Part shown: in pieces, positions 296-5,641 of the stretch
How positions within the stretch are numbered: the first letter of the stretch is position 1
How the letters are laid out: the number at the start of each line of letters is the position of its first letter
DNA from: Nitrospira defluvii
GTDB lineage: Bacteria > Nitrospirota > Nitrospiria > Nitrospirales > Nitrospiraceae
Assembly (NCBI GenBank): GCA_016199015.1
Contig: JACQHN010000473.1
Coordinates: forward strand, 1 to 5,641
Direction of reading: 5' to 3'
DNA: 5,641 nucleotides
Translations under genes and position numbers: made by a program
Notes under the pieces: generated by a model
Seen by the model: only the letters and a program-made list of their open reading frames with translations
Told to the model about the DNA's origin: nothing
Databases searched by the model: none

Positions 296-607
296 CCTAA
301 AAACACAAGGCGCCGAGGCAGAAGCACCAGCGCGTGGGCACTCAGGATGGCACGAGCAGCAGCCCTCGTTACAGACGCCGGGCAGGCTTCCTATGGATCT
401 TTATTTGGATCTTCGACCAGGCCCGTGTGTGCGGAAAGAACGTGCTGCTCTGGCTGGTGCCGTTTGCGTTGGCTCCGCTCCCGACCTTGATGCTGTTTAT
501 CTTGTCTTTACAGCGAAAGGTGAAGTCGTAGCCCGCCATAGAAGTGCCGTCGTGGCACGCACGGGACTCAACACCACACAACCGCGCACCGATAGAATTC
601 CACGATC
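296..607. other. gene-poor stretch with one hydrophobic reading frame
   Basis: No convincing gene was found here. The only notable frame is on the plus strand from about 382 to 531. It encodes a peptide with a hydrophobic run (GFLWIFIWIF), a short polar turn, and a second run of about 23 residues (VLLWLVPFALAPLP onward to LSL), ending in basic QRKVKS. It resembles the tail of a two-helix membrane protein. It has no ribosome binding site and no plausible start other than a GTG at 334, so it is either a remnant or chance. The remainder holds no recognisable RNA, repeat or terminator. Confidence 0.25.
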
Positions 608-745
608 TTACGAGAGGCGGTCTCTTCTACCCTGAATCAGCTGGTACAAGGCTTGGAAGAGATGACCCATCCGCTCATACCACCGGTTACACACCTGGAC
701 ATGGACGCCATTGAGTTGCCGCAAGCCGTGAGCCAGCACCTCCAG
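608..745 (-). pseudogene. unrecognised 45-residue frame, possible gene tail
   Basis: Between a TAG at 746-748 and a TAA at 608-610, this minus-strand frame reads LEVLAHGLRQLNGVHVQ and continues with VCNRWYERMGHLFQALYQLI. The amphipathic pattern and balanced composition look more protein-like than the other five frames here, which are rich in Ser, Arg and Cys. There is no start codon with a ribosome binding site, so it would be the 3' end of a broken gene. I do not recognise the family. A decayed transposase is possible but unsupported. Confidence 0.22.
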
Positions 746-903
746 CTATCGGTCCGGTCGCCAGCATCGGCCACACAATCCTGCCCGTCATTTTCTCGAT
801 GCTCACATGAGAGACCGCACCGGAGATCCCACGCGAAGGGACGGACTATGTCAGGCGATTTTCGCAGCCTGAATGTGTGATGGCAAGACCTGATCTCATC
901 TGA
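746..903. other. no supportable feature
   Basis: This 158-bp stretch lies between the unrecognised tail at 608-745 and the short cassette-type gene ending at 904. A minus-strand frame continues open beyond the TGA at 904-906, but its translation is rich in Trp, Cys and Ser and does not resemble a folded protein. No promoter, repeat or terminator stands out. Confidence 0.4.
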
Positions 904-972
904 TCACGACCGATCAACATCGATCTCCAGCTTCCCGCCCTTCCAAGCTTGAACAAACTCGGTGTGCTCCAT
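904..972 (-). pseudogene. short cassette-type gene, truncated after 22 codons
   Basis: The minus-strand ATG at 972 follows the purine-rich AGAGGAGA (980-973) and starts the peptide MEHTEFVQAWKGGKLEIDVD followed by RS and a TGA stop at 904-906. The opening looks like a genuine amino terminus of a small soluble protein. The gene starts 12 nt past the right-hand box of the attC-like element at 985-1062, where a cassette gene should start. Normal genes of this type would run on, so I read this as a gene broken by a stop codon or deletion just after codon 22. The ribosome binding site is closer to the ATG than ideal. The family is not recognised. A genuine 22-residue peptide cannot be excluded. 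Confidence 0.4.
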
Positions 973-984
973 TCTCCTCTCAAA

Positions 985-1062
985 CCCTAATGCTCGCGCT
1001 CGGGGGCGCGGGCAAGCAAATGCACGCCGCTCTCGACTGTCCGATGCATGACCAAATTAGAC
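985..1062 (-). repeat. attC-like element following the gene at 1068-1831
   Basis: Read on the minus strand, this 78-bp element starts with GTCTAAT five nucleotides past the TAG at 1068-1070 and ends with ATTAGGG just before the next short gene. CTAAT and ATTAG form inverted ends. The positions match the R'' (RYYYAAC) and R' (GTTRRRY) boxes of an integron attC site, but each has one transition at the residue involved in recombination (AAC to AAT, GTT to ATT). The interior contains ATGCA/TGCAT and CGCGC/GCGCG stems. Placement supports the call; the altered boxes suggest an inactive site. Confidence 0.35.
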
Positions 1063-1067
1063 GTCGA

Positions 1068-1831
1068 CTACCCATCATAGATTTCATCGAACTTGCGAAA
1101 CAGTGCGATGTTGACTCGGTCCACCCAATCCAACACCTCAAGAAGAAACTTGTCATCGGCCCCAATCCGCTTCCGCCAGAGACGGAAGGGTTCATTGGTA
1201 AACCTTAGGGTTGGAGAAACATAGCGGATATCAGCGGGATGAGAAAAGGGGAACGGCGAGAAACTCCCATCGTCGTTTCGGAGAAGACAAAAGTCCATGG
1301 ACTCATTCCACGACCCATGGATGGACTCGGACATCATCCCGTAGGTACATGCATACAACTGTTCGTTCTGGACTACTGCAAAAATGTCATAAAACGTCTT
1401 TCCCTGAATCCTCCAACGGTTCTTCTTCTGGGTCTCGAAGTCAGCAGCAGTGAGATTCTCTAGCTCCATCTTCTCCCGCACAGACTTAAGTAGTCGCTTT
1501 CCTGCCTTTGTTTCGAAGAAACGCGAGCCTTTTTCAAGGTCACGCAGAATGCGTAGACGGTCTTTGTAGGAGCACTTCCTGTAGTCATCGAGCACACTTT
1601 GCTCGTTTTGCAGAAGATACGCAGCAATTACAGCCCAAGAACGGGCGCATCGTGGATGGAGAAGCCCGTAGGGTTACGCTCAATATTCCGAACTCTGGTA
1701 ATGGCGTCATAAATCTCAGCAACGTCCTTGTAGAAGGTCAGGGCAAACGCGTTAATGCGTTCCATCGACCCAAGGTTATCCCCTACAAACGATTCGTCAT
1801 ACTTCTTGAGAACCTCGCGAATCTCATCCAT
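1068..1831 (-). pseudogene. hypothetical protein gene split by a frame change near 1630-1645 (DUF5677-like?)
   Basis: Two adjoining minus-strand frames look like parts of one protein. The first, from ATG at 1831 to TAA at 1628-1630, gives 67 residues (MDEIREVLKKYDESF to HDAPVLGL), helical and well composed. The second is open from upstream of 1640 to TAG at 1068. Its useful part begins about VIAAYLLQNEQ and continues through YRKCSYKDRLRIL, GKTFYDIF, MSESIHGSWNES and a tail ending KFDEIYDG. The ESIHGSWNE segment faintly recalls the DUF5677 family, from memory only. The switch lies at CTTGGGCTGTAATTGC, where the first frame hits its stop and the second becomes protein-like. A single-base change or an internal deletion would do this. 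No enzyme motif, signal peptide or membrane segment is seen. An alternative is a shorter gene starting at the GTG at 1595, which has no good ribosome binding site. Confidence 0.6.
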
Positions 1832-1863
1832 GGGGTCAATACGATCAGAACGGAATCTCGACG

Positions 1864-1944
1864 ACTCGACCGAGTTAAGCGGAGAGCGGCCAGTGCGCGC
1901 AGCACGATGGCCACACTCTCGTCCATTCGAACGCGCTGTTAGGC
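1864..1944 (-). repeat. attC-like recombination site following the gene at 1952-2404
   Basis: On the minus strand GCCTAAC (1944-1938) begins 7 nt after the TGA of the upstream gene and matches the attC R'' box RYYYAAC. The element ends in GTCGAGT (1870-1864), which fits GTTRRRY at 6 of 7 positions. Inside, CGAATGGACG (1929-1920) can pair with CGCTTAACTCG (1881-1871), leaving an unpaired extra base, as in L''/L' boxes. The centre has GAGAG/CTCTC, GGCC/GGCC and GTGC/GCAC stems. The 81-bp length is in the normal attC range. The right box is imperfect and unusually close to L'. This is the best attC candidate in the window. Confidence 0.55.
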
Positions 1945-1951
1945 CGCGATT

Positions 1952-2404
1952 TCACGTTACTGCCTGCAGAAGGCCTCCTTGTGGAATCTCATTCGACCAA
2001 TACCTCAACAGAATTGAAGCTATCTCCCGGAGATTCATTCCGGCCCTTTCCGCCCGCACGAGGAAGAGCAAAGGCTCCTGGTACGCAATCGTGGATAAAG
2101 CTGCGTAATGACCTTTGACCCATTGGCCGAGCCCCGCTCGACATAGCCGATGGTAAATCTCCTTTAGATCAGACCTCGACAGCGACTCAATCTCCATCAG
2201 CTTTCGAATTCCGTCGTCGTCCTCGCATAGATCGAGAAACTCTTCCAGAGCTTTTTCCTGTTCAGAATTTCCGCTGTGCAGATTTTGCATAAATACTGCG
2301 ACTACATCGTCAACGATCTGGTCGGGCGGAGCAATCTTGAGCTGCAGCCTTCGAAGTCTGGAAGATTTATTCCATGAGCGGACGAAGGTTGAGAGAATTC
2401 CCAT
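1952..2404 (-). CDS. hypothetical protein, 150 residues, cassette-type gene
   Basis: This is the only intact gene in the left half. The minus-strand ATG at 2404 is preceded by AAGGAA (2414-2409), a good Shine-Dalgarno sequence, and the frame runs to a TGA at 1952-1954. The product is predicted to be soluble and mostly helical, with an acidic middle (EKALEEFLDLCEDDDG, about residues 50-65) and a basic amino end (RSWNKSSRLRRLQLK). It has no signal peptide and no clear membrane span, and I recognise no family or catalytic motif. Context is the informative part: GTTAGGC lies 17 nt upstream of the ATG and GCCTAAC lies 7 nt after the stop, so the gene sits between recombination-type boxes like an integron cassette. 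Its role is unknown; cassette genes often encode lineage-specific accessory proteins. Confidence 0.72.
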   Translation of the reverse strand: MGILSTFVRSWNKSSRLRRLQLKIAPPDQIVDDVVAVFMQNLHSGNSEQEKALEEFLDLCEDDDGIRKLMEIESLSRSDLKEIYHRLCRAGLGQWVKGHYAALSTIAYQEPLLFLVRAERAGMNLREIASILLRYWSNEIPQGGLLQAVT

Positions 2405-2420
2405 TTGATTCCTTCTTGCA

Positions 2421-2507
2421 GCCTAACAATTAAAGTGAGCAGCGACAGGGATGCTGGCATCCTAACCCTGACTGCGCCAGAGCTCTGGTGACCGCAAATT
2501 GTTGAGA
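2421..2507 (-). repeat. attC-like element between the genes at 2462-2623 and 1952-2404
   Basis: On the minus strand the element ends in GTTAGGC (2427-2421), a perfect GTTRRRY box, 17 nt before the next start codon. A candidate left box, TCTCAAC (2507-2501), matches RYYYAAC at 6 of 7 positions. The ends form a perfect 7-bp inverted pair, AACAATT (2425-2431, plus strand) and AATTGTT (2497-2503). The interior holds a GGATGC/GCATCC hairpin nested in CAGGG/CCCTG, and a 12-bp palindrome CCAGAGCTCTGG (2480-2491). Typical L boxes are not evident and the element overlaps about 43 nt of the upstream gene's end. The right end is convincing; the left end is less so. Confidence 0.45.
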
Positions 2508-2623
2508 TCATCCTCAATTCGAGGAACTGTGTCAATTACCGCCCACAAGAAAACACTGCCACTGGCGCGGCCTATCTCCCTATTGACCCGCAGTCTATTT
2601 AAGGTTGGGGGGCAGGTCTGCAA
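2462..2623 (-). pseudogene. 3' remnant of an unknown cassette-type gene
   Basis: This minus-strand frame runs from just below an in-frame TGA at 2624-2626 to a TAG at 2462-2464. Its carboxyl part, NREIGRASGSVFLWAVIDT then VPRIEDDLNNLRSPELW and RSQG, looks like a real protein end. The first ten residues (LQTCPPTLNR) look random. There is no plausible start codon with a ribosome binding site. The point where it stops looking protein-like is close to 2637, where homology to the ampG downstream flank begins. I infer that the 5' part was removed when the ampG fragment arrived. The family is not recognised. Confidence 0.4.
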
Positions 2624-2648
2624 TCACACATTTTACACATCGGGGGTA

Positions 2649-2679
2649 CTTCACCCAACGGCTCACGGTGGCGTCGTGC
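2649..2679. repeat. conserved 31-bp noncoding block, copy 1
   Basis: This block differs from 4104-4134 at a single position, although the sequence between it and the ampG stop codon is poorly conserved. It contains ACGGCTCACGGTGGCGTCGT. Only a weak CACG/CGTG stem can be drawn and no T-run follows, so a terminator is unlikely. Its function is unknown. Confidence 0.6.
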
Positions 2680-2723
2680 AAATCTGAATACTAACCCGAC
2701 GGTTGCTTCACCGCAGCAGCTCC

Positions 2724-2993
2724 TCAACAAGACAGACTCGCCTCGCTCCTGCCTTCACTCATCTCCGCATGCTGCGTGACCGGCTTCCGGAGGTACCACA
2801 GCAGCCATAAGCCCGGCAGCGCGGCGAGAAAGGTGACGAAGAAGAAGGGGCCCCACCCGGCGATCCCGACCAACTTGGCGGCAGGCCAGCCGAGGAAGAC
2901 ACGTCCGAGGGCCTCGACGGAAGAGAGCAGAGCGAACTGAGTCGCAGTATAGCGATGATTGCAGAGCGACATGACCAGCGCCACGAAGGCCGC
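2724..2993 (-). pseudogene. ampG: truncated ampG, carboxyl-terminal part only
   Basis: The translation matches residues 333-421 of the AmpG encoded at 4183-5448, from AAFVALVMSLCNHRYTATQ to the stop, with three substitutions: Leu to Ile in the LVGxAGWG segment, Val to Tyr in LLWxLRKP, and Lys to Gln in VTxHAEM. It retains only the last two to three membrane helices, so it cannot transport. The minus-strand frame continues to an ATG at 3038 through sequence with, at most, weak likeness to AmpG (MGGM against TGGM). There is no sign of its own expression signal. About 33 nucleotide differences against three amino-acid changes show that the source gene was functional during most of the divergence. 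Confidence 0.85.
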
Positions 2994-3146
2994 TTGGGGT
3001 CTTGTACGCATGCCACCCATGTTCCGAACTGCGTCCAAACCCGTTCTGCCGTGAGGACCGACAAATAGTCCCGCTCACCCTGACAAGAAACGACTCCTCT
3101 GCTCCCTCTGTTTCTTTGTGTGTTCCTTCCAACCATTGATGGCCTC

Positions 3147-3175
3147 TTGCCAATGTCTTATATTTAGGACATACT
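3147..3175 (+). promoter_or_regulatory. higBA promoter with overlapping operator-like palindrome
   Basis: TTGCCA (3147-3152, 5 of 6 to consensus) and CATACT (3170-3175, 4 of 6) are 17 bp apart. The interval plus two flanking bases holds the imperfect palindrome ATGTCTTATATTTAGGACAT (3153-3172), symmetric at 16 of 20 positions with perfect ATGTC/GACAT ends. A repressor bound there would block RNA polymerase. HigA-type antitoxins are known to repress their own operons this way, so this is the expected HigA site. The transcript should start around 3182, the toxin's GTG. Confidence 0.65.
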
Positions 3176-3181
3176 GCGCGG

Positions 3182-3514
3182 GTGAAGTCGATCACGTTTC
3201 ATCCCAAGGCGCTGGCATTCATCCGCGGTCAATCGCCAGCGATCAGGCGGGAGATCGGCGAAGCGCTCCGGGACATTCAGAAAGGTATCCAGCTAGGCCT
3301 GCCTCTCAGTAGGCCGATGCCCGCGGTGGCATCCGGCGCTCATGAACTCAGAGTGCGGGGCACAGCGGCAGCCGTACGGGTGTTCTACTTTGTAAAATTA
3401 GCTGACACGATCGTGGTGTTTCACGGATTTCAGAAGAAGACCCAGAAGACGCCTGCACACGAGATCGCCGTCGGCCAACAGCGACTAGAGGAGGTGGTGC
3501 ATGACCATGTCTAA
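3182..3514 (+). CDS. higB: HigB/RelE-type toxin (phage-derived Gp49-like family)
   Basis: The 110-residue product belongs to the RelE-fold toxins related to HigB and phage Gp49, which cut mRNA at the ribosome and arrest growth until bound by their antitoxin. Visible features are a basic amino-terminal helix region (IRREIGEALRDIQKG, 21-35), the HELRVRG strand (54-60), the VRVFYFVK strand (65-72) and the diagnostic FQKKTQKTP motif (83-91) followed by EIAVGQQRLEEV. Length is normal for the family. The start is GTG with no convincing Shine-Dalgarno sequence, and the predicted transcription start falls on it, so the toxin message may be leaderless and poorly translated. It overlaps the antitoxin gene by 14 nt. 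Toxin first, antitoxin second is the higBA order. The gene appears intact. Confidence 0.9.
   Translation: MKSITFHPKALAFIRGQSPAIRREIGEALRDIQKGIQLGLPLSRPMPAVASGAHELRVRGTAAAVRVFYFVKLADTIVVFHGFQKKTQKTPAHEIAVGQQRLEEVVHDHV
3489..3495 (+). promoter_or_regulatory. strong ribosome binding site of higA
   Basis: AGGAGGT, a full complement of the 16S rRNA 3' end, lies 5 nt before the ATG at 3501, inside the toxin coding sequence. It favours 3501 over the in-frame ATG at 3507 and contrasts with the toxin, which has no clear site. More antitoxin than toxin per transcript would follow. Confidence 0.8.
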
Positions 3515-3812
3515 GACCCACAGGAGTGTGACCGTTCGAACCGCCGAACACCTCGGGCGGGCATTGGGTTTGTCCGCGGCTGATACTGCCGAAATGGAAT
3601 TTCGTTCGGAGCTCACCGTCGCATTGGCAAAAATCATTCAAGCAGGACGGCTTACCCACGTCGAAATCGCGAAAGGCGCCGGCACGTCGAGAACACGAGT
3701 GACCGCGATTGCGAATGGGAACACCCACGGTGTCTCGACCGATGTACTCATCAGGGTCCTTGCCGCAACAGGCCATCGCGCAGAAGTCCGAGTGAAGAAG
3801 GCCGCCGCCTAA
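3501..3812 (+). CDS. higA: HigA-type antitoxin, XRE/HTH transcription factor
   Basis: This is the partner of the upstream toxin. The 103-residue protein has a helical amino-terminal part (EHLGRALGLSAADTAEME, 16-33) of the kind seen in HTH_37/XRE antitoxins of this branch. A Cro/C1-type helix-turn-helix follows at about 45-75: LTHVEIAKGAGTSRTRVTAI, where VEIAKGAGTSRTRV is the core. A third helix (STDVLIRVLAATG) and a basic tail ending RVKKAAA complete it. Antitoxins of this family bind the toxin and repress the shared promoter; the palindrome at 3153-3172 is the likely site. The gene overlaps the toxin by 14 nt and has its own strong ribosome binding site. It appears intact, stopping at a TAA (3810-3812) with no obvious terminator behind it. 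Confidence 0.9.
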   Translation: MTMSKTHRSVTVRTAEHLGRALGLSAADTAEMEFRSELTVALAKIIQAGRLTHVEIAKGAGTSRTRVTAIANGNTHGVSTDVLIRVLAATGHRAEVRVKKAAA

Positions 3813-3825
3813 GGTGATCTTTCCA

Positions 3826-4080
3826 CGTGTTCCGACCTGCCACGGCAGAAGTGTCAGGCCAATCAATGCCCACGACTAACGTGGTCCGCCCCACAGGGTG
3901 ATGGCAATCTGGCGGGAAAGCAAGTCCAGGACCGTGCTGCATCACTCGGATCGAGGCAGCCAGTACAGCAGCGAATCGTTCCCACAGCTCGTGGCGGGCC
4001 AGGCCTTTCCTGCAGCATGCCACTCAGGCGATGTTTGGGACAACGCGGCATCAGGCAAGAATTGGGAGCAGGTCTTCTAA
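3826..4080 (+). pseudogene. IS3-family transposase (OrfB, integrase core) remnant
   Basis: The frame from 3898 to the TAA at 4078-4080 contains LHHSDRGSQYSSESF, the IS3-family segment with the second catalytic aspartate, followed by SGDVWDNAASG, normally DNA(A/L)xESFF in intact enzymes. Here the sequence departs at ASGKNWEQVF, so the catalytic glutamate is missing. Upstream, 3826-3897 aligns in shifting frames with the region that usually reads DLFSRxVVGWSM: pieces such as DLPRQ and VSGQSMPTT can be read. At least two small frame changes and both ends are lost. No terminal inverted repeats were found. This is a dead fragment of an insertion sequence wedged between higBA and the ampG downstream flank. 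Confidence 0.75.
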
Positions 4081-4092
4081 GCACACACCCGT

Positions 4093-4452
4093 ACTTCGGC
4101 GTGCTTCACTCAACGGCTCACGGTGGCGTCGTGCGCAGCGAACTGTCAGACCGATTGCCTGTTCGGCCAGCCTCTGGAACCCTCAACAAGACAAGCTCGC
4201 CTCGCTTCGGCCTTCACTCATCTCCGCATGTTTCGTCACCGGCTTGCGGAGCACCCACAGCAGCCATAAACCCGGCAGCGCGGCGAGGAAGGTCACGAAG
4301 AAGAAGGGCCCCCACCCTGCCAGCCCAACAAGCTTGGCGGCAGGCCAGCCGAGAAAGACGCGCCCGAGGGCTTCGACGGAGGAGAGCAAGGCAAACTGGG
4401 TTGCGGTATAGCGGTGATTGCAGAGCGACATGACCAGCGCCACGAAGGCCGC
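4093..4452 (-). repeat. ampG 3'-region direct repeat, copy 2 (within intact ampG)
   Basis: This is the counterpart of 2637-2993 and covers the last 89 codons of the intact ampG plus its downstream flank. The left edge abuts the transposase remnant, which ends at 4080. Recombination between the copies would remove 1459 bp, including the higBA operon. Confidence 0.85.
4104..4134. repeat. conserved 31-bp noncoding block, copy 2
   Basis: This block matches 2649-2679 at 30 of 31 positions and lies about 48 bp past the ampG stop codon. In both copies it is better conserved than the adjacent coding sequence. No function is assigned. Confidence 0.6.
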
Positions 4453-5448
4453 CGTGCCCATGCCGCCGGTGAGATTTTCGAATCCGACCGCGAACGCCAT
4501 GACGGCGTAACTCTTCCCCGCCCATGCCAGCCATAAGAACGACAGGTTCGACAGCGCCTGTAACACCCCGAACACCAAGAGCGAACGGAAGAGGCCTAAC
4601 TGCGGCATCAAGCCGCCCCCGATGAACGCACCGAGAATAGTCGCGCCGATGCCGAATGCCCGAACCACGCCGATATCTTCAGACGAAAACTCCATCCCGC
4701 GAAGGAGAAACGAGGTCGTCAGCGCGCCGGCGAACGCATCGCCCAACTTATAGAGGACGATCAAGCCCAGCAGCGCCCCCGCCATGGGACGAGACAGAAA
4801 TTCGGACAGAGGCCCCCACACCGCCTCCTTCATCGATTGCGGTGCAGCCCGCGCCTCCTCCGGTTCCGGAATCATCAGGATGGTCACAATCCCTAACAGC
4901 ATCAACCCGGCCATGCAGAGATAGGCTGAGGACCATCCCAGGCGCGCCGCAACAATCAAGGCCAGCGAGCCTGAGGCAATCATCGCGATGCGATACCCCA
5001 TCACCCAGGTGGCAGCGCCCAACCCCCGCTCATCCGGTTTCAGCAAGTCAGTGCGATAGGCGTCGAAGACAATATCCTGCGAGGCAGAGAGAAAGGCGAC
5101 GCCTAGTGCCAGCGCCGCAAAGATTTGAGCCCCCGAGCTAGGACCGATCAACGCCATCAAGGTTAACGCCAGCGCGAGACCGGTCTGGGTGACGATCATC
5201 CAGCCCCGGCGGTGACCGAGCCAGGGCGGCACGATCCGATCCATGACCGGCGCCCAGAGAAATTTCAGGGTATAGGGAAGGCCGACATAGGCAAACAGGC
5301 CAATGGTCGTCAGATCCAGTCCGGCTTCGGTCAGCCAGGCCTGCAGAGTTCCGCCCGTGAGGGCCAGCGGCAACCCGGAGGCGAACCCCAAAGGCAGCAT
5401 GATGCCGAGTCGTGGAGTCAGGACGGCGCGCAGGGTAGCTCTATTCAT
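4183..5448 (-). CDS. ampG: AmpG-like muropeptide permease (major facilitator superfamily)
   Basis: AmpG proteins are inner-membrane proton-driven importers that bring GlcNAc-anhydroMurNAc muropeptides from the periplasm into the cytoplasm for cell-wall recycling; in species with inducible AmpC beta-lactamase they also supply the inducing signal. The 421-residue product has the family signatures: GFASGLPLALTGGTLQAW (21-38) in helix 1, LPYTLKFLWAPVMDR (57-71), RRGW (80-83) at the helix 2-3 loop, SASQDIVFDAYRTDLL (121-136), and GGMGTAAFVALVMSLCN (328-344). About 12 membrane helices can be counted, with a central cytoplasmic loop around 195-222. It is shorter than E. coli AmpG (491 residues), like many AmpG homologues outside enterobacteria. 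The start is the only sensible ATG; no clear Shine-Dalgarno sequence precedes it. No ampD or ampC gene is in view. The gene appears intact. Confidence 0.9.
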   Translation of the reverse strand: MNRATLRAVLTPRLGIMLPLGFASGLPLALTGGTLQAWLTEAGLDLTTIGLFAYVGLPYTLKFLWAPVMDRIVPPWLGHRRGWMIVTQTGLALALTLMALIGPSSGAQIFAALALGVAFLSASQDIVFDAYRTDLLKPDERGLGAATWVMGYRIAMIASGSLALIVAARLGWSSAYLCMAGLMLLGIVTILMIPEPEEARAAPQSMKEAVWGPLSEFLSRPMAGALLGLIVLYKLGDAFAGALTTSFLLRGMEFSSEDIGVVRAFGIGATILGAFIGGGLMPQLGLFRSLLVFGVLQALSNLSFLWLAWAGKSYAVMAFAVGFENLTGGMGTAAFVALVMSLCNHRYTATQFALLSSVEALGRVFLGWPAAKLVGLAGWGPFFFVTFLAALPGLWLLWVLRKPVTKHAEMSEGRSEASLSC

Positions 5449-5539: not shown

Positions 5540-5568
5540 TAGTCCTGGCTAGCCCGCATTATTCACGA
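5518..5568. repeat. 9-bp inverted repeat bracketing the ampG -35 region
   Basis: TCGTGAATA (5518-5526) and TATTCACGA (5560-5568) are perfect reverse complements. The arms start 42 bp apart, about four helical turns. The inner arm falls in the spacer of the candidate ampG promoter and the outer arm upstream of its -35. A regulator site or the end of a lost mobile element are both possible. Confidence 0.45.
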
Positions 5569-5641
5569 AGACTTCTACTACAACCGCCGAGACGCCGTTC
5601 CGACAAGCCTGCCGGCGGGCGGGCTCGCCGCTCGGTCGGTC
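5569..5641. other. GC-rich palindromic stretch at the window edge
   Basis: GCCTGCCGGCGGGC (5607-5620) and the overlapping CGGCG/CGCCG pair (5613-5630) can form competing hairpins. No T-run follows on either strand, so an intrinsic terminator is not supported. No gene is visible here. Confidence 0.3.

Follow-up and report, generated by a model that had tools for sequence, protein, structure and literature searches.

What is likely a row of decayed integron gene cassettes lies, on a contig without an integrase, between an ampG-like gene and its usual neighbour in what is likely a Nitrospira chromosome; the probability of this reading is put at about 0.86. The window, meaning the whole stretch of DNA that was analysed, is one entire contig of 5641 bases (C413) from a genome of 600 contigs (3.1 Mb, 67% complete), whose fragmented and incomplete state weighs against the reading. 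A protein named Nitrospira sp. (P0117) is 95% identical to the ampG-like protein of the window, and 14 of 15 relatives searched within the genus have proteins 86-97% identical to it, pointing to Nitrospira as the likely host. For the region 904..2623, a cassette array without an integrase (CALIN), as had been proposed from the sequence alone, is the best reading and is supported by the same-strand order of genes and sites, by two covariance-model matches and by the absence of an integrase (no TIGR02249 match) from the contig. The strongest support is comparative, namely the 94% identity of cassette gene 1 to a gene in another family, starting at the core of site A. The array is likely chromosomal, decayed and ordinary in kind; arrays of the CALIN type are already known, and a CALIN in the genus Nitrospira is not new. 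A literature search found no paper on this particular array, and found integrons to be hardly described in Nitrospira. The main use of the array is that its left cassette boundary can be read by comparison across two families; it is also a natural example of attC sites apparently caught mid-decay, in a likely Nitrospira.

Organization of the array and its attC-like sites

The array is read along the minus strand in the order site A, 150-codon gene, site B, two DUF5677 pieces, site C and 22-codon remnant. Site A (2421..2507), a remnant attC or an insertion junction upstream of the first cassette, ends in the core GTTAGGC (2421-2427), 16 nt ahead of the ATG at 2404 that opens cassette gene 1 (1952..2404), an open reading frame for a 150-residue protein of unassigned function. 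Site B (1863..1944), a degenerate attC closing cassette 1, starts with GCCTAAC at 1944, 7 nt past the stop of this gene. Cassette gene 2 is a broken DUF5677 gene, of which the N-terminal piece (1628..1831) was delimited by DNA alignment to the genes of loci L067 and L068 and the C-terminal piece (1068..1595) by its match to PF18928 (E 1.2e-10, 42.1 bits against a cut-off of 27.1). Site C (985..1062; GTCTAAT ... ATTAGGG), a degenerate attC closing cassette 2, starts at 1062, 5 nt past the stop of the C-terminal piece, and ends at 985, 12 nt ahead of the ATG at 972 of a 22-codon frame (904..972), the presumed remnant of a third cassette gene, for which a plasmid search at E <= 10 gave no match. 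Measured against RYYYAAC for the first box and GTTRRRY for the second, the boxes have one mismatch and none in site A, none and one in site B (the last box being altered), and one and two in site C. The boxes, gene order and spacings that had been claimed for the three junctions (now 5-7 nt after stops and 12-16 nt before starts) were thus borne out, and the attC-like elements are present but degenerate.

A covariance model (R1) was built from 20 aligned attC-like sites, none from the window, taken from loci near integrase genes or near cassette genes elsewhere. Because these training sites were chosen partly for box complementarity, the stem statistics of the alignment only check the alignment: its stems pair in 86.6% of cells (75.4% for shuffles, no more than 48.4% for slid versions), its covariation score exceeds that of all 500 shuffles, and its seven pairs changed on both sides were reached by 224 of 500 shuffles. 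When R1 was run on the window with filters off, the two best matches were on the minus strand, site C at 24.2 bits (E 9.9e-5) and site B at 16.6 bits (E 0.0069); the third and last match at E <= 5 scored 4.9 bits (E 4.3). With a leave-out model (R2), from which the two training sites of cassettes homologous to those of the window had been removed, site C retained 23.9 bits (E 1.5e-4) and site B a weak 14.1 bits (E 0.031). Site A was matched neither by R1 at E <= 5 nor by R2 at E <= 10, so that of the two places where the sequence-only reading had expected a model match, 1863-1944 gave one and 2421-2507 did not. The arms of site A are complementary at 8 of 11 positions, a value reached by 119 of 5000 shuffles. 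A scan for boxes plus fold found no site in the window, yet three in a shuffled window.

Sites B and C lie 800 bp apart, each with E < 0.01 in R1 (a self-built model, not that of IntegronFinder), and the contig carries no integrase nearby, which agrees with the definition of a CALIN as at least two attC sites under 4 kb apart without a neighbouring integrase, albeit with degenerate sites. In cassettes 1 and 2 a gene is followed by an attC-like site on the same strand, as expected of cassettes, gene 2 being broken.

A probable cassette shared with another family

The left boundary of cassette 1 can be read from a second locus, L057, on the Nitrospirae MAG contig JACQBZ010000033.1; this locus, which by its contig position is the same place as one in G454, belongs to another family of the same class. 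Positions 2427-1926 of the window are 94.0% identical over 502 bp to positions 7979-8479 of L057. Ahead of the core of site A identity is 32-40%. The match sets in at the G of GTTAGGC in that core, extends over the first box and arm of site B, and beyond these drops to about 50% identity. Compared with the GTTRRRY cores expected at both ends, the shared unit therefore has its left boundary at GTTAGGC, and its right boundary is not at a core, since the identity fades inside site B. Although the gene is 94% identical in DNA, site B resembles the corresponding site of L057 (8461-8541) chiefly over the first arm and at a few bases in the centre; it may be a hybrid or a decayed version.

At L057, an attC (7923-7985) ending in the identical GTTAGGC precedes the gene, and a canonical attC (8461-8541) that scores 43.8 bits in the leave-out model follows 7 nt past the stop of the gene. 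The locus has five gene-strand R1 matches, of which three are training sites and one is weak (5935-6006, 21.7 bits). Thus the L057 cassette resembles that of the window in its gene and in its identical left boundary, and differs in having a canonical, foldable attC and another chromosomal place, flanked by genes that we take, from reading their open reading frames, to be glutamine-amidotransferase-like and aminotransferase-like. Identity of 94% between different families points to transfer, and cassette gene 1 has likely moved between species. The L057 genome has no integrase above cut-off; at the contig end (G235:C34:50563-50718), about 40 kb from the gene, there is a 52-position piece of an integron integrase (98.7 bits).

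Homologues of the cassette genes

The 150-residue protein has 110 homologues at E <= 0.01, including those at 77-94% (P0001-P0011). It is predicted to be mostly helical (mean pLDDT 85), and the predicted structure has no Foldseek match at E <= 0.001 in the PDB or among viral models. A pattern scan of species genomes placed the gene at three loci; it has six matches, including that of the window, in 235 genomes of the order (two only partial) and likewise six, including that of the window, in the 395 phylum genomes sampled (one only partial). Six loci outside the window hold near-full-length homologues. Matches to attC occur at two of them, L057 and L059, the latter a deltaproteobacterial MAG locus with a 42%-identical homologue and ten gene-strand attC matches at E <= 1, including one training site. 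The other four (L058, L061, L062 and L063) have no attC match. Homologues in a conserved operon without boxes had been named in advance as evidence against cassettes; no conserved operon was seen, and with attC matches at two of the six loci and none at four this counter-evidence did not clearly appear. The DNA of L062 and L063 is 82.8% identical in an alignment of 717 columns that extends some 180 bp upstream of the gene, which suggests that the gene may have a cassette-free home in that genus.

DUF5677 homologues 71-72% identical to that of the window were found in two genomes (G059 and G160). The gene of G160 (71% identical) ends in an attC, with its stop codon inside the first box, that scores 39.0 bits in the leave-out model; the gene of G059 has no attC match. 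Among the 235 genomes of the order, the 150-residue and DUF5677 genes occur together in no genome other than that of the window.

Probable decay of the sites and of the second gene

The three elements had been described as structured, and folding as single-stranded DNA had been suggested as a check; this expectation failed, since sites A, B and C have z scores from +0.23 to -1.16 on either strand, no significant stability relative to shuffles; the attC downstream of cassette gene 1 in L057, by contrast, does fold (z -2.97 and -3.23). The sites of the window are therefore called remnants rather than active attC sites. In addition, the broken DUF5677 gene lacks 103 nt that are present in both aligned relatives (L067 and L068). 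Poor folding, mismatches in the boxes and the missing 103 nt together lead us to read the array as a probable fossil of a cassette array.

Likely insertion between ampG and its neighbour

The native right flank of the array is the ampG-like gene for an MFS transporter of 421 amino acids (4183..5448, minus strand; MFS_1, E 2.6e-26), and the native left flank is a short conserved reading frame on the plus strand (394..531). Nine of 14 relative loci have DNA matches to the latter (76-86% identity) on the same side of ampG and on the same strand relative to it; their distances from the ampG 3′ end, measured from the match ends, range from 44 to about 870 bp. The flanks fetched at the other five loci, 1.5 kb or shorter, contain no match. 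In the window the same frame is 3.65 kb from the ampG 3′ end. The ampG locus of the 14 relatives has no attC match at E <= 1. Within the contig, the array is enclosed by close neighbours of the ampG locus. The contig ends are therefore unlikely to account for the lack of an integrase, and the array is likely an insertion between these neighbours, a chromosomal CALIN rather than an integron split by assembly.

The interval 541-4056 was searched in 29 genomes of the genus, with ten candidates scored in each. The candidates scored matched only the ampG copy, toxin-antitoxin and transposase-like parts, the DUF5677 gene of G059 and short scattered pieces. The ampG copy is a truncated second copy of the ampG 3′ end and downstream DNA (2643..2993, minus strand), in which 2722-2993 is 88% identical to 4181-4452 and 2643-2679 is 92% identical to 4098-4134; among the matches listed for the 29 genomes, two ampG 3′ copies occur in the window's own genome only. 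Between the copies lie a Gp49-like toxin and HTH antitoxin pair (3182-3812), with a 73% DNA match over the pair in one genome (G023) and 72-77% matches to parts of it in another (G015), and a weak transposase-like fragment (rve, E 0.013). At the left end of the contig, a BrnT-like toxin gene (2-295) is cut by the contig end; in a relative (L097 of G001) an 87% match to this stretch lies between ampG and the 394-531 frame. At the right end, 5549-5641 is the left arm of a MITE-like inverted-repeat element of roughly 200 bp that starts with CTAGCCCGCATTATTCACGA and whose other arm ends in the near-mirror TCGTGAATAATGC...CTAG. At least 37 copies or pieces of this element, many of them at contig ends, are present in the same genome among 40 matches scored of 73 candidates, and four of five relatives have at least 1-20 matches.

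Comparison with known systems and alternative origins

Two CALIN are reported in Candidatus Nitrospira inopinata by IntegronFinder 2.0 (PMC9024848), and CALINs are called more abundant than intI-bearing integrons among Bacteria (PMC9668308). Compared by description, the window is like the Candidatus Nitrospira inopinata CALINs in that two attC-like sites less than 4 kb apart (by the self-built model) enclose genes sharing one strand, the contig has no integrase and the likely host has the same genus name; it is unlike them in that its sites are degenerate and one gene is broken. A complete sedentary chromosomal integron would have the same cassette anatomy; in contrast to it, no intI was found next to the array and no attI was seen. 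Chromosomal insertion of cassettes mediated by attG sites has reportedly been described by Loot et al. in 2024. The window resembles such insertions in that its cassettes are away from an integron platform and an integrase gene is present in the genome, and differs in that more than one cassette stands in a row and the target site is a candidate only.

The integrase IntI binds attC as a folded bottom strand, and recombination takes place at G^TT. Each cassette would thus comprise a gene and then its own attC recombination site, and IntI, by pairing the folded attC with another site and cutting at the G^TT of the core, would let cassettes enter and leave as exact units. A unit starting at GTTAGGC in two families may therefore be read as the trace of an IntI cut. 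An IntI, that of the genome or that of a donor, would have placed the cassettes beside ampG; they may once have been part of a longer or intact array and would no longer recombine where they are. The cassettes may have arrived at an attG site or may have belonged to an integron that lost its platform.

According to one alternative, cassettes were inserted by an IntI acting in trans straight into a non-classical chromosomal attG beside ampG, so that site A is a junction and was never an attC. Such insertion into genomes is described in PMC12901181 and PMC12444791. Site A has no attC model match although the cassette boundary is at its core, and an integrase gene lies elsewhere in the genome. 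Against this, the arm complementarity of site A, seldom reached by shuffles, favours an old attC, the stretch upstream of the core (2428-2607) is covered, among the matches scored in the 29 genus genomes, by the window's own sequence alone, and the ampG locus of 14 relatives lacks attC matches; this origin is considered unlikely. Its broader form would be that CALINs in the phylum are insertion products rather than broken integrons, Nitrospira integrases seeding cassettes into the chromosome, with the stretch downstream of ampG as an attG site that took up a cross-family cassette in trans and then fossilised. That proposal is somewhat less likely still.

If instead the array were part of a complete integron cut by assembly, its integrase would be on another contig such as C366, where an integron integrase above cut-off does run off the contig end, and the window is indeed a whole contig of 5641 bases. 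However, both outer sides of the array are inside the contig and match the ampG-locus neighbours of nine of 14 relative loci, and C366, searched whole (L050), has no attC match at E <= 1, which makes a split integron very improbable. Least credible of all is an ordinary small operon, or a set of orphan genes, with boxes present by chance: the insignificant folding, the mismatched boxes and the four homologue loci without attC matches would fit it, but the model matches (E 1e-4 and 0.007) fall on one strand directly past two stop codons, the left boundary of the shared unit is at a core, and the two genes are together only in this one genome among 235 of the order. A decayed cassette array lying beside ampG remains the preferred reading.

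Integrases and attC sites in the genome and its relatives

The search for an integrase had a divided outcome: the contig carries none, consistent with a CALIN, and the genome does have an integrase gene on another contig. TIGR02249 matches of the genome are on C366, C113, C361 and C423, the last two weak. On C113, a C-terminal integrase piece is beside five attC matches, three of them training sites. At E <= 1, R1 gave at least 13 matches in the genome (five on C113, four on C455, two on C420, one on C44 and one on the window's contig), a list that may be incomplete as 150 of 1918 first-look candidates were scored. The four on C455 likely represent another array of the same genome.

A survey of 41 genomes, including that of the window, used stricter filters, with at most 119 candidates scored per genome. 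The five genomes with an integrase above cut-off (that of the window, G000, and G007, G014, G015 and G032) have at least 10, 12, 7, 17 and 9 attC matches at E <= 0.05, respectively, of which at least 7, 7, 6, 15 and 8 are left when training sites are subtracted. The remaining 36 genomes comprise 15 with one to six matches and 21 with none among the candidates scored; all three matches of one genome (G022) are training sites. At least 20 of the 41 genomes therefore have one or more attC matches, and 15 of those have no integrase above cut-off. Counts of integrases may underestimate how widely cassettes are exchanged in the group. Two layouts of integrase and array were observed: at L051 (C113 of the window's genome) and L042 (G007), the integrase gene or piece is on the same strand as the cassettes and the array follows the integrase 3′ end, while at L043 the layout is divergent, so that G007 holds both.
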